This document shows, one piece after another, positions 122 to 9,953 of a stretch of DNA of 44,454 nt. Where the stretch lies: the IMG/VR virus record IMGVR_UViG_3300009149_002994, positions 1 through 44,454 of that record. One strand, 5' to 3'. The position numbers were made by a program, and so were the translations under genes. Source of the DNA: a virus. Position 1 is the first letter of the stretch. Every line of letters starts with the position of its first letter. The notes under the pieces are model-generated. The model was not told where the DNA came from, did not search any database, and saw nothing but the letters and a program-made list of their open reading frames with translations.

Positions 122-1666
122 TTAGGGTTGTTTGGCTTGGTTTACGTACCCCAGCAAATTGATACCACATCTCTCAATGTCCTCAAGTTTCGGTACTGTC
201 CCCACTTCCATCCCCATGCCTTTGGAATACTGCATCAACACGTGCTCGCGCATCATGCCACTGGCTGGCGATATACGGCACAAGTGCCACATAAACTTAG
301 TGTAATAGTGTTTCAGCATATCATATACTTGATGCTGTTTGATTCCCGTATCCACGTTGTACCCTAACGATCCCGGCCTATCGTGTATCTGTGTGATGTG
401 ATACTTTGCGGGATTGCGGTATATTGGTGTCCCTTCATACAGGGCAAAAATGCTCTTGTGCACCATGTGGATTATGTCTTTGTTGCGGTACAAGAATTGC
501 AATGTCTCTCGGAACTCATCCTCTGTCTCAGAAGGAAATCCAGCTATAACAAACACATGATTCTTGATGCCTGCCGCAGCCGCCGCCTGCATTGTCTCCT
601 CTGCCCCTACTACGTCTATGCCTTTATCCATCAGATCAACTACCCTTTGGCAGCCAGATTCGAGGCCCCACATGATATATTGACATCCGGACTTTGCCGC
701 TTCTTTCAAGGCTTCCCGGCTGAACCCTGTTGTTGGCTTGGCCATAAGGTAGTATCTAACTTCAAGCCCACGCCGTTGGATTGCAAGAGCTAAATGCAAG
801 AGCCGCTTTGGGGATACCATCTCATCAACAATCCCAAACATTCGCACCCCCCTTTTAACCCGATATTCCATCTCGTCCACTACTCGATCCGCTGATGCCT
901 CCCGATACTCGCCGCCATAAATCTTATGATGCTCACAGAATGCACATCGCCGCCAACTACACCCTCTTGACCCCATAATCGGAACAAAGGGCAATGGTGT
1001 ATAATAGCTGCCCAAATCGAAGTCTGAGAAATCGGGATAGGGCATATCATCAAGATTGTGTGGGCCGATCCTTCCGCTGGCTAATGCCAGGAGCCCTTTT
1101 TCACCCTCGCCCCGAATAACATGATCCACAGACGGATTGCCCCACGGTTCGTCGGGGACCGAACTGCCGCCAAATACGGTCTGCGTACCTGGGCTCATGC
1201 CCTTGATTATCTTAGCCATCAAAATCGCATAGGGTAGTTGTGAGTTGAATATACAGGAAAAACCTACAATGTCGGGCTTGTTTTCCAGCACGCTCGCTGC
1301 TTGCCGCGCTAATACATTGCCGAAAAACGCCCCCCCCATATTCGGCATTGCCCTTGCAATGAACGCCACCCATGCGGCGATATGGCGGTTGTAAATCTTG
1401 CGATCATAAAAATCGGCAATATCACCGCTCCAGAGAAATTCTATCGCCTCCAAAATACTGTCTTTTGAATTACCCAGATTGATTTCCCCCAGTATTATTG
1501 CAACGATAGCTGTAATATAGCAATCAGCGTTTGCGTCGAAACATTTGACAGATACGCCGCTATTGGCCTCCATGTACGCTTTTAGCGATGCAATCCCAAT
1601 AGGCACGCGCGGCCTTGTGATTGGGGGATATACGAGGTTTATTTGCATTGGCACTGCTTTTCCCAT
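122..1666 (-). CDS. radical SAM protein with B12-binding-like N-terminal domain
   Basis: This 514-residue protein has the two-domain layout of B12-dependent radical SAM enzymes. Residues about 1-200 form a Rossmann-like cobalamin-binding-type domain (opening INLVYPP, later FGGSSV and RGEGE). A radical SAM barrel follows with the cluster motif C236-X4-C241-X2-C244, a spacing variant of the usual CX3CX2C. Family members catalyse methylations and C-C or ring-forming reactions in natural-product, lipid or RiPP pathways; the substrate cannot be read here. The start could be residue 7 (position 1648), since only about 8 nt separate the promoter start point from the first ATG. It has its own promoter and faces away from the integrase, as expected of phage cargo, though a host gene is not excluded. 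Confidence 0.85.
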   Translation of the reverse strand: MGKAVPMQINLVYPPITRPRVPIGIASLKAYMEANSGVSVKCFDANADCYITAIVAIILGEINLGNSKDSILEAIEFLWSGDIADFYDRKIYNRHIAAWVAFIARAMPNMGGAFFGNVLARQAASVLENKPDIVGFSCIFNSQLPYAILMAKIIKGMSPGTQTVFGGSSVPDEPWGNPSVDHVIRGEGEKGLLALASGRIGPHNLDDMPYPDFSDFDLGSYYTPLPFVPIMGSRGCSWRRCAFCEHHKIYGGEYREASADRVVDEMEYRVKRGVRMFGIVDEMVSPKRLLHLALAIQRRGLEVRYYLMAKPTTGFSREALKEAAKSGCQYIMWGLESGCQRVVDLMDKGIDVVGAEETMQAAAAAGIKNHVFVIAGFPSETEDEFRETLQFLYRNKDIIHMVHKSIFALYEGTPIYRNPAKYHITQIHDRPGSLGYNVDTGIKQHQVYDMLKHYYTKFMWHLCRISPASGMMREHVLMQYSKGMGMEVGTVPKLEDIERCGINLLGYVNQAKQP

Positions 1667-1975: not shown

Positions 1976-2003
1976 TTGACTCTGGCCAAATCTGTGGTAA
2001 AGT
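1976..2003 (+). promoter_or_regulatory. promoter of the integrase operon
   Basis: TTGACT (1976-1981), a 16-bp spacer and TAAAGT (1998-2003) form a sigma70-like promoter. Transcription would start just before the folded leader at 2012 and read into the small gene at 2120 and the integrase. Confidence 0.55.
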
Positions 2004-2011
2004 GTAAATAT

Positions 2012-2083
2012 GCTACGCACGACAAAACAATTCATTACGGTCTGCCCGGGGCACTTCTCTGTGCGTAGCAACCCGGGTGGACC
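2012..2083 (+). ncRNA. 5' leader predicted to form an H-type pseudoknot
   Basis: Two long helices interleave. P1 pairs GCTACGCAC (2012-2020) with GTGCGTAGC (2061-2069), nine perfect pairs. P2 pairs GGTCTGCCCGGG (2039-2050) with CCCGGGTGGACC (2072-2083), twelve pairs with two G-U wobbles. Connecting segments are 18, 10 and 2 nt. The two helices can coexist as a pseudoknot or, if P1 is displaced, give a single long P2 hairpin containing a small GCAC/GTGC hairpin. The element starts a few bases after the promoter and ends 36 nt before the first start codon, the place of a cis-acting leader such as a riboswitch or autoregulatory binding site. I recognise no known family. Confidence 0.6.
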
Positions 2084-2090
2084 TTATCTT

Positions 2091-2104
2091 TGCCCGTAAG
2101 GGCA
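2091..2104 (+). promoter_or_regulatory. GNRA-capped hairpin next to the ribosome binding site (copy 1)
   Basis: TGCCC-GTAA-GGGCA forms a 5-bp hairpin closed by a GUAA tetraloop, followed by the Shine-Dalgarno AGAGAGG and ATG at 2120. A near-identical unit (GCCCGCAAGGGCAGAA) precedes the integrase start. Confidence 0.55.
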
Positions 2105-2119
2105 GAAAGAGAGGACTGA

Positions 2120-2458
2120 ATGAAACTCAAAGACAAACTAAACCTGGTAAACATCCATCGCAGGCAGCTTACGGACAGTGAGCGCAAGACGCTGAGCAGT
2201 TACAAACAGATGATTCGCAACATCAAAGAGGAAAGTGGGCGCATCGGCGGTGAAACCCATGTATCCCCAAATGGACTCAAACATGCTGAGGCGTGGGCCG
2301 ACAATACGATTGCCATTTACAGTTTAGCCGATTCGCAAAAGGCGGTCGGATATGAGCTGGCCCAAGCTGTGCTGAATCAAGCTGGAGATGGCTTGGATAG
2401 AACAGACTTTATCCTGTCAAAAGCTACCGAATATATAGCCTTTGAAAACGAGAGCTAA
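2120..2458 (+). CDS. unknown small protein upstream of integrase
   Basis: This 112-residue protein is not recognised. It is charged and mostly helical; the first 40 residues are basic and lysine/arginine rich, the rest amphipathic and acidic at the end. The start is supported by AGAGAGG five bases upstream of ATG. It is the first gene of the integrase operon and its transcript begins with the pseudoknot leader. Position suggests an excisionase-like or integration-control role, but no winged-helix or helix-turn-helix signature is obvious, so this is inference only. Confidence 0.75.
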   Translation: MKLKDKLNLVNIHRRQLTDSERKTLSSYKQMIRNIKEESGRIGGETHVSPNGLKHAEAWADNTIAIYSLADSQKAVGYELAQAVLNQAGDGLDRTDFILSKATEYIAFENES

Positions 2459-2460
2459 CC

Positions 2461-2472
2461 GCCCGCAAGGGC
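2461..2472 (+). promoter_or_regulatory. GNRA-capped hairpin next to the ribosome binding site (copy 2)
   Basis: GCCC-GCAA-GGGC forms a 4-bp hairpin with a GCAA tetraloop, directly followed by AGAAGGA and the integrase ATG at 2482. It repeats the unit before the gene at 2120, differing mainly in the tetraloop's second base. Confidence 0.55.
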
Positions 2473-2481
2473 AGAAGGACA

Positions 2482-3519
2482 ATGCCCAAAAAAGTCCGAG
2501 TTTGGTATAGGCACACACGGAACCGCTGGTACGGCGAATACCATCAGGGCGGCAAGCGACATGCGCAATCGTTCAAATCAAAAGGCGACGCCTACCGCTG
2601 GAAGTCCTACATGCAGCACCGCCTGAATTACGAGCCGTGGCAGGGAGTCAAGCCCGAAATCTTTTCAGTGGCACGCGACCTGTACCTTGCATCGAAAGAG
2701 TCTGAGGGCATCGCCGCCAGTTCCCTCGCTGAAATTGAACGCAGTATCGAATATTTCGTGGCGATCATCGAGCCCACCAATTCCCTCGACATCACGACCG
2801 CCAATATCGAGGCATTCAGGACCAGGCGAAAGACCACCAGCAGCAGCCGCAAGAAGATTGTACCTGAGACAATCAACAAAGACCTGAGAAATTTGAGAGC
2901 CTTCCAGAATTGGCTTGTGGAGAACCACTTTGCCCATGACGGCACAAAGTTCAAAATGTTGCCCACTGTGAAGCGCCGATTCGTGCCGCCGGGAGAGAAC
3001 CAAATCCGCAGCCTGTTCGCCCTGGCAGAGTCCACGCCTCCGCTCCATGCCAGAATGACGCTGGCTATGCTGACCGGCCTGCGCCGCAGTGCAATCGAGA
3101 AACTGAGCCTGAACACAACAGATGATGAGTATATCGACATTGAACACAGCAGGATCATCACACTGGAACAAAAGACCCTCACACAGGAAATCAAATATCT
3201 CGGCCCGAACGCTATGCAGGTTATCATCAGGTACATCGAGACATTGCCTACAGGCGCCCGCAAACTGTTCGGCGAACCGTGGGACGGTAAGGTACGATTC
3301 ACATGGGAGAAGATACGCAAGCGGGCGGGACTGCCGAAACTGAAATTCCACAACCTCCGAAACCTCTCGCTCTCGATCCTGGCCGACAAGGGCGAATCAG
3401 CCGCAACGTTACAACGACACGCAGGCCACAGAAGTTACAAAACCACAGACGGGTATATCGGGGTTACTCCTGAGACTGAGATGCGCATTGCCCTGAAGAT
3501 TGACGGGTTTTTTGGGTAG
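2482..3519 (+). CDS. int: tyrosine recombinase integrase
   Basis: This 345-residue protein is a phage tyrosine recombinase that would catalyse attP x attB recombination. An N-terminal arm- or core-binding region (residues about 1-170, with a WYGEY motif near the start and a SAM-like helical core-binding domain) precedes the catalytic domain. The active-site set is visible: arginine in TGLRRSAIEKL near residue 200, a lysine in the following beta-hairpin, H290-x-x-R293, H313/H316 in HAGH and nucleophile Y325 in the DGYIG motif. The length is normal and the gene intact. It is preceded by AGAAGGA and lies beside the tRNA-half attP. It converges with the early operon ending at 3553. Confidence 0.95.
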   Translation: MPKKVRVWYRHTRNRWYGEYHQGGKRHAQSFKSKGDAYRWKSYMQHRLNYEPWQGVKPEIFSVARDLYLASKESEGIAASSLAEIERSIEYFVAIIEPTNSLDITTANIEAFRTRRKTTSSSRKKIVPETINKDLRNLRAFQNWLVENHFAHDGTKFKMLPTVKRRFVPPGENQIRSLFALAESTPPLHARMTLAMLTGLRRSAIEKLSLNTTDDEYIDIEHSRIITLEQKTLTQEIKYLGPNAMQVIIRYIETLPTGARKLFGEPWDGKVRFTWEKIRKRAGLPKLKFHNLRNLSLSILADKGESAATLQRHAGHRSYKTTDGYIGVTPETEMRIALKIDGFFG

Positions 3520-9035: not shown

Positions 9036-9953
9036 TCATACCTCCCTTACCTGAAACTCTTTCGGCCATTGCTCGATGTGTTTGTTGCACTTACCGTCGA
9101 GCGGTATTTGTTTGACGTGAACCAGGGCACCCGCGTTGTGGGCTTGCCGTATCATGTGCCTAATCGCATGAAGTTTACACAGCCTTGCTCTTGGGCCTGA
9201 TTCGCAGCCAAGAAAAATGTAATCTATGCCTTTCAAAGCCACATCAAACCCGTGTAACAACGGCTCAAACGATACGGACCTCTTTGCCGCTGGCGTCTTA
9301 ACCAACTCAGCTATCCGCCATACGTTATCCTGGTTCTCGACTGAGACGCCGAGGTGCAAGTTAGGAATAGGGTGCGGTACTGGCCCATCCAGTTTCCCGC
9401 GCTCGGATTGGTCGTAATGCGACTTCCAGTAGTCGTTTGCCCTTTGTACTTGCGCGTTGGTTATTACTCCATTGATCGCATGTAAAGCAAAAAACTCATA
9501 AGAAAACGATGTATGCTTCATTCCCTCGCGGATTAGCCAGCCGTCAGGAAACGCCGCAAAGAACTTATACATCCGTTGTGGGCGCTTCGTGAGGAAATAA
9601 TAGCTATGCCAAGGTGTCGCGATTATTATGCCAATTATTTTAAGCACCCACTCAAAGGGGACAGATTCATGAAACAAATCCGACATCGAGCATACGAATA
9701 TCTTGCGGGGCTTGCGCCAGTGCAGGGGCTTGGTCAAGGCAGATTCGACAAAGACTGTTTCGCCATTCCACTTGCCGCACACATCAAGAACCTCGCCGTA
9801 TCGGTCTGGCCCACCCCTTGTTATTTCCATGTGTGCTTGTCGATGTGCCATCTTCTCCGCGTAGCAATTCAAACACCCGGCGCTCACCTTGCTGCATCCG
9901 ACAATCGGATTCCACGTAGAGTCCGTCCATGAAATTGCGCTGTTATACGACAT
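9036..9953 (-). CDS. DUF5131 / phage Gp37-Gp68 family protein
   Basis: This 305-residue protein starts with the family signature SWTDSTWNPIVGC and cysteines C20-X6-C27-X2-C30, an iron-sulfur-like three-cysteine motif reminiscent of radical SAM enzymes, then W-R-K-P-R, FLTKRP and the SFEPLL and LGCESG blocks of a TIM-like barrel. The family is common in phages; its chemistry is unproven. AAAGGAATAGGC precedes the ATG. It lies between the helicase-loader gene and the run of small genes. It is intact and of usual length. Confidence 0.88.
   Translation of the reverse strand: MSYNSAISWTDSTWNPIVGCSKVSAGCLNCYAEKMAHRQAHMEITRGGPDRYGEVLDVCGKWNGETVFVESALTKPLHWRKPRKIFVCSMSDLFHESVPFEWVLKIIGIIIATPWHSYYFLTKRPQRMYKFFAAFPDGWLIREGMKHTSFSYEFFALHAINGVITNAQVQRANDYWKSHYDQSERGKLDGPVPHPIPNLHLGVSVENQDNVWRIAELVKTPAAKRSVSFEPLLHGFDVALKGIDYIFLGCESGPRARLCKLHAIRHMIRQAHNAGALVHVKQIPLDGKCNKHIEQWPKEFQVREV

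Follow-up and report, generated by a model that had tools for sequence, protein, structure and literature searches.

Compact H-type pseudoknots with conserved loops are found in the 5′ leaders of preQ1 and SAM-II-like riboswitches, and type III toxin-antitoxin systems (ToxI-like) are organized as a promoter followed by a pseudoknot RNA and then a gene. Few structured RNAs are known to be linked to phage integration genes. STAXI is a pseudoknot motif located near integrase, SSB, topoisomerase, and antirestriction genes; it is found in Enterobacteriales as an array of two or three pseudoknots in tandem, frequently bearing UUCG loops (PMC2864571). The enterobacterial small RNA RydC depends on its pseudoknot for stability, and disruption of the knot is predicted to give a 5′ stem-loop and a freed terminator hairpin (PMC4337610). 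With respect to RNA decay, RNase E acts more slowly in vitro on transcripts whose 5′ end is base-paired (PMC3997798).

The leader described here lies in a linear virus record from IMG/VR, 44,454 bases long, which was analyzed over its full length and is referred to as the window. The window encodes a gene set of the tailed-phage type (terminase, portal, head protease, capsid, tape measure, and Erf). We favor, with moderate confidence, an assignment of positions 2011–2083 as an H-type pseudoknot module at the 5′ end of the ORF1–integrase transcript, belonging to a small, unnamed family that includes elements on two unrelated phage contigs, L066 and L016. The region is composed of the following features:

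1976–2003, plus strand: sigma-70-like promoter, TTGACT-16-TAAAGT, with TG ahead of the −10 box; 9 of 12 consensus matches
2011–2021, plus strand: 5′ strand of helix P1, TGCTACGCACG, at the expected transcription start
2022–2038, plus strand: loop L1, 17 nt, with ACAATT at 2027–2032, common to L066 and L016
2039–2050, plus strand: 5′ strand of helix P2, GGTCTGCCCGGG
2051–2060, plus strand: loop L2, GCACTTCTCT, 9 nt if 2060 is paired; the final T is a possible G–U partner of 2021
2060–2070, plus strand: 3′ strand of P1, TGTGCGTAGCA
2072–2083, plus strand: 3′ strand of P2, CCCGGGTGGACC, 1 nt (L3) past the P1 3′ strand
2084–2091, plus strand: U-rich tail behind P2, TTATCTTT, a weak terminator-like tract (nT 2.8)
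2092–2103, plus strand: GNRA-capped hairpin GCCC-GTAA-GGGC, just ahead of the ORF1 Shine-Dalgarno sequence
2108–2115, plus strand: Shine-Dalgarno sequence of ORF1, AGAGAGGA
2120–2458, plus strand: ORF1, 112 aa, predicted with low confidence to be all-helical
2461–2472, plus strand: second copy of the hairpin, GCCC-GCAA-GGGC, ahead of the integrase
2482–3519, plus strand: tyrosine integrase, 345 aa (Pfam Phage_integrase, 2e-10; phrog_1 integrase, 6e-33)

P1 begins 7 nt past the −10 box, which ends at 2003, and thus at the expected +1; the promoter call is a consensus match only, with 2 found versus 1.1 expected. The tail at 2084–2091 was not called by a terminator search that permits loops only up to 8. 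None of the collections searched contained a relative of ORF1, and for the integrase they yielded only distant matches (roughly 25–32% identity). Phage DNA was therefore screened by architecture instead.

Several features of the surrounding sequence were also cataloged. An attP-like region at 1700–1965 contains a tRNA T-arm-like stretch at ~1815–1870 (GCACG-TTCGAGT-CGTGC); ARAGORN found no tRNA in this region. Direct repeats are present as GGTATCGCTTTGGT at 1710, 1938, and 1949, as CCTTGnATTCnCAGGCA at 1875 and 1915, and as a tandem TGTTAATGAA at 1735. Such arm-type repeats on both sides suggest that the left end is phage rather than host DNA. Beside the attP-like region lies a gene for a Radical SAM/B12-binding protein (122–1666, minus strand), an unusual phage cargo. 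Farther along, a DUF5131/phrog_2045 protein (9036–9953, minus strand) is also encoded in 46 other IMG/VR contigs at ~28–50% identity. The head protease of the window is 100% identical to that of a 13,116-base IMG/VR contig (L007); by its coordinates, this contig should cover the window from ~31.3 kb rightward to its end.

P1 comprises 10 perfect Watson–Crick pairs (2011–2020 with 2061–2070) and G2021–U2060, for a total of 11 pairs, and P2 comprises 12 pairs (2039–2050 with 2072–2083), two of which are G–U. From 5′ to 3′, the leader runs through the first strand of P1, L1 (17 nt), the first strand of P2, L2 (9 nt), the second strand of P1, a single A (L3, 1 nt), and the second strand of P2. Duplex energies of −17.5 kcal/mol for P1 and −23.7 kcal/mol for P2 sum to −41.2 kcal/mol, the top-ranked interleaved helix pair on both strands of the 44,454-nt window. 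This sum was reached in 0 of 382 whole-window dinucleotide shuffles (nearest, −40.9 versus −41.2 kcal/mol) and in 0 of 20,000 local trials, in which the 81-nt leader was shuffled (best, −31.4 kcal/mol). The nested fold of 2012–2083 is the P2 hairpin, at −27.9 kcal/mol (z = −3.26). In stepwise folding, P1 is the best structure between nt 2070 and nt 2080, with the P2 hairpin ranking first from nt 2083. The helices have no nucleotides in common and are thus not mutually exclusive by sequence. A pseudoknot usually incurs a penalty of ~9–10 kcal/mol; with both helices counted and only helix energies and this penalty considered, the stability of the knot should equal or exceed that of the lone P2 hairpin (−28.1 kcal/mol). 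Given the lengths of L1 and L2, the full knot of 11 + 12 pairs is topologically demanding, and it may be that only the P2 hairpin, or first P1 and then P2 in alternation, forms. A coding alternative was rejected, as the frame opening at the ATG at 2010 spans 29 codons versus 7 in L066 and is not conserved.

The initial annotation had described helices of nine and 12 pairs, interleaved within a leader that directly follows a promoter and precedes the first gene, with two alternative folds (a pseudoknot or one long P2 hairpin). The placement holds, with P1 at the expected +1 and ORF1 starting at 2120. The interleaving is real and slightly stronger than described, exceeding both local and whole-window shuffles, and stepwise folding gives two alternative nested folds, an early P1 and a P2 hairpin from nt 2083. 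P2 retains its 12 pairs, and P1 is revised from nine to 11.

The architectural screen called for two interleaved helices, a short L3, and a promoter just upstream; loop letters were not used. Upon screening 1.49 Mb, the three strongest matches were the window, L066 (6995–7071), and L016 (2906–2989), with no shuffle below −31.6. Across 4.4 Mb of fetched, partly overlapping phage contigs, L066 and L016 were the only further members, which implies that the family is rare or that the descriptor is too strict. At a stem sum of −38 or lower in the 4.4 Mb, three of four matches had a promoter scoring at least 8 at the right distance, compared with 2.4% of random positions. All three promoters have a 16-nt spacer, P1 starts 5–7 nt past each −10 box, and both relatives reproduce the layout of the window (promoter-P1-L1-P2-L2-P1′-P2′). 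Extension to another 2.9 Mb of phage contigs, some of it overlapping loci already screened, yielded no new strong member, Blast searches of the L016 and L066 elements against named phages returned only noise, and a search of plasmids for the leader found none. Weaker look-alikes, all on the reverse strand and without ACAATT, were observed in L153 (11406–11472), L195 (9607–9672), and L196 (6740–6832); the latter two belong to one AT-rich contig and have clear U-run terminators without a sigma-70-like promoter. Simpler patterns gave chance matches: the P1 arm pattern retrieved four IMG/VR stretches that lack the architecture, and the P1′-P2′ strand pattern retrieved six, all of which were discarded.

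The L066 element is intergenic, with the start codon of an AAA/RecF-SMC-type ATPase 27 nt past P2. The L016 element is found amid small genes, its P2 runs into U8, and the nearest downstream gene begins at 3238, ~250 nt on; it resembles an independent small-RNA gene with U8 as its terminator. The U-run behind P2 is U8 in L016, only UUAUCUUU in the window (nT 2.8), and lacking in L066. An ATPase gene in one case and no near gene in the other indicate that the module is associated with the transcription start rather than with the integrase. A single role may not fit all three members, given that L066 lacks a U-run and L016 lacks a close downstream gene.

The loops provide the main evidence for common descent because they were unused in finding the matches. 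ACAATT is present in L1 of the window, L066, and L016, and any common 6-mer was recovered in 18 of 20,000 composition-preserving shuffles. L2 of the window, GCACTTCTCT, is identical to that of L016, GCACGTCTCT, at 9 of 10 letters (49 of 50,000 shuffles). L2 of L066, GATCCTCTT, has CTCT in common, a match without significance by itself (1,134 of 20,000). When the search was anchored on ACAATT, only the window, L066, and L016 fell below −35 kcal/mol; three control 6-mers gave none below −24. Within the helices, P1 of the window and L066 differ by four double changes, and P2 by four double and four one-sided changes, all with pairing kept. The letters of L016 differ from the window at most helix pairs, and G–U pairs are used in five of the six helices of the three members. 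Pairing was the search criterion for L066 and L016, so its retention among these three members, all metagenomic, is partly by construction, and homology rests on the promoter offset and loop motifs.

At the gathering threshold, the window, L014, L066, and L016 matched no Rfam family other than tRNA, and relaxed scans of the three elements gave only sub-threshold matches, those of the window leader being at chance level (E up to 10). PtaRNA1 was rejected as a candidate for L066, scoring 21.8 bits against a 47-bit threshold. The initial view that the leader fits no known family was therefore borne out. The pseudoknot reading has likewise gained support from two elements with the same layout, conserved loop motifs, and helix letters that change yet still pair. 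The proposals of a switch, of sensing a host or phage signal, and of binding to the ORF1 product stay hypothetical, and specificity to the integration genes is not supported: the element precedes an ATPase gene in L066 and is an apparent free-standing small RNA in L016.

The hairpin that separates the leader from ORF1 has a wider distribution. GCCC-GYAA-GGGC-AGAA lies directly 5′ of the Shine-Dalgarno sequence of both ORF1 and the integrase, and the pattern GCCCGNAAGGGCAGAANG is present in 60 IMG/VR stretches (loci L058–L117), compared with only 9 for an arm-swapped control. An ATG opening an ORF of at least 40 codons was found at the right distance for 44 of 61 hairpin occurrences versus 15% for AGAANG in the same loci, although these counts are not independent, as some contigs are mutually related. 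Many phage contigs that otherwise differ have the hairpin and Shine-Dalgarno sequence ahead of start codons; in L103, a slightly varied form precedes three consecutive genes. GCCC-GNAA-GGGC thus looks like a recurrent phage translation-start hairpin. No comparable pseudoknot was found in the 120 nt directly upstream of the hairpin in the 60 contigs; L066 is among them, with its pseudoknot element elsewhere on the contig.

Other explanations for the leader were considered. Chance would require that a strong P2 hairpin coincide with a fortuitous 10-bp repeat and that L066 and L016 be look-alikes drawn from a 4.4-Mb scan. Just two other members are known, and a few GC-rich coding stretches likewise yield strong interleaved helices; however, the pair surpasses every local and whole-window shuffle, the loop motif sharing has a frequency of ~1 in 1,000 per loop in two loops, and a promoter occurs at a matching offset in all three members, making chance hardly credible. 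An attP-like area that carries the direct repeats (1710/1938/1949 and 1875/1915) adjoins the region and raises the prospect of a DNA-level element, such as an inverted operator or integrase arm-type sites near attP that overlap the promoter. We regard this as highly unlikely, because no other copy of TGCTACGCAC is present near the att region with up to two mismatches allowed, the arms of L066 and L016 differ while complementarity is kept, and G–U pairs are mismatches in DNA. Arms that are not conserved, together with the use of G–U pairs, point to a constraint on RNA pairing and favor an RNA over a DNA operator.

Two further alternatives retain the RNA but assign it a different mode of action. 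A cis-acting switch (riboswitch or attenuator), in which an early P1 and a late P2 are alternative states and a ligand or protein shifts the balance, would accord with the co-transcriptional order of the helices, the conserved loops, the U-rich tract behind P2 in the window (U8 in L016), and the potential of CUUCUCU in L2 to pair with the Shine-Dalgarno sequence AGAGAGG at −8.5 kcal/mol. Variants in which P2 and UUAUCUUU constitute a weak terminator, or the UCUCU loop masks the Shine-Dalgarno sequence, are possible but not favored. The switch nevertheless appears somewhat unlikely: the sequence permits both helices, which have no nucleotides in common; the window has only a weak U tract and L066 has none; the Shine-Dalgarno pairing is unexceptional, being equaled by 11 of 63 leader 10-mers, with L066 ranking 34 of 65; and no Rfam riboswitch matched. 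The leader could instead be a trans-acting, RydC-like phage small RNA of ~80 nt that ends past P2, with occasional read-through into the genes. L016 fits this description, having a promoter, a pseudoknot, a U8 terminator, and no gene until 3238, and the pyrimidine-rich L2 could pair with Shine-Dalgarno sequences. This explanation is nevertheless unlikely, since the tail in the window is merely UUAUCUUU, L066 has no U-run, and a gene starts 27–36 nt past P2 in the window and L066.

Our preferred reading is a pseudoknot module at the 5′ end of the transcript, an RNA element that is probably real but unnamed and that most likely serves to protect the 5′ end or to bind a partner there. During synthesis, the RNA would fold P1 first and then P2, and the 5′ nucleotides held in P1 would shield the transcript from 5′-end-dependent decay. 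A paired 5′ end slows RNase E-type decay (PMC3997798), and the sequestered 5′ end of the leader should thus slow decay. Conservation of the loops points to a binding partner; ACAAUU in L1 and GCAC-UCUCU in L2 may form the binding surface for a protein, an RNA, or a small molecule, and such binding would set the output of ORF1 and the integrase. The module in the window would act in cis as a leader, and that of L016 would be released as an ~80-nt small RNA via its U8 terminator.

A broader and more tentative proposal is that the three elements represent a new phage RNA family, defined by a start-anchored pseudoknot with ACAAUU/UCUCU loops, that serves as an mRNA leader and as a free small RNA, and possibly as a ligand- or protein-responsive switch. 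If true, a novel family would be used in an integrase operon, a recombination ATPase leader, and a free small RNA. Post-transcriptional control of the integrase bears on the choice between lysis and lysogeny. A module fixed at the transcription start, in which the loops are conserved and the helices change freely, offers a concrete descriptor for locating more members, and screening by promoter offset, interleaved helices, and short L2 and L3 can expose pseudoknots missed by pseudoknot-free covariance models.

Among known systems, STAXI (RF01728) is the nearest motif by genomic association, as it also places a pseudoknot close to an integrase gene. The leader differs in being a single unit by tandem-repeat scan, in lacking UUCG, and in having no match to RF01728. 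The order of promoter, pseudoknot RNA, and gene resembles that of type III toxin-antitoxin systems, but the leader lacks tandem repeats and ORF1 has no toxin match (ToxN/CptN/TenpN-like). Riboswitches of the preQ1 and SAM-II type are likewise compact H-type pseudoknots in 5′ leaders with conserved loops; the stems of the leader are much longer, and no Rfam riboswitch model matched. As in 5′-terminal stem-loop stabilizers of the ompA and papA type, the 5′ nucleotides of the leader are paired from about +1, a property predicted from promoter position for all three members. Those stabilizers are simple hairpins without conserved loops, whereas the leader is an interleaved pair with conserved loop letters. 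RydC differs in its free 5′ seed, where the 5′ end of the leader is paired, and in not being an mRNA leader, and the Rfam RydC model was unmatched. It is nonetheless the closest working analogue, being a small pseudoknotted RNA with pyrimidine-bearing loops and the same two-fold alternative as the leader.
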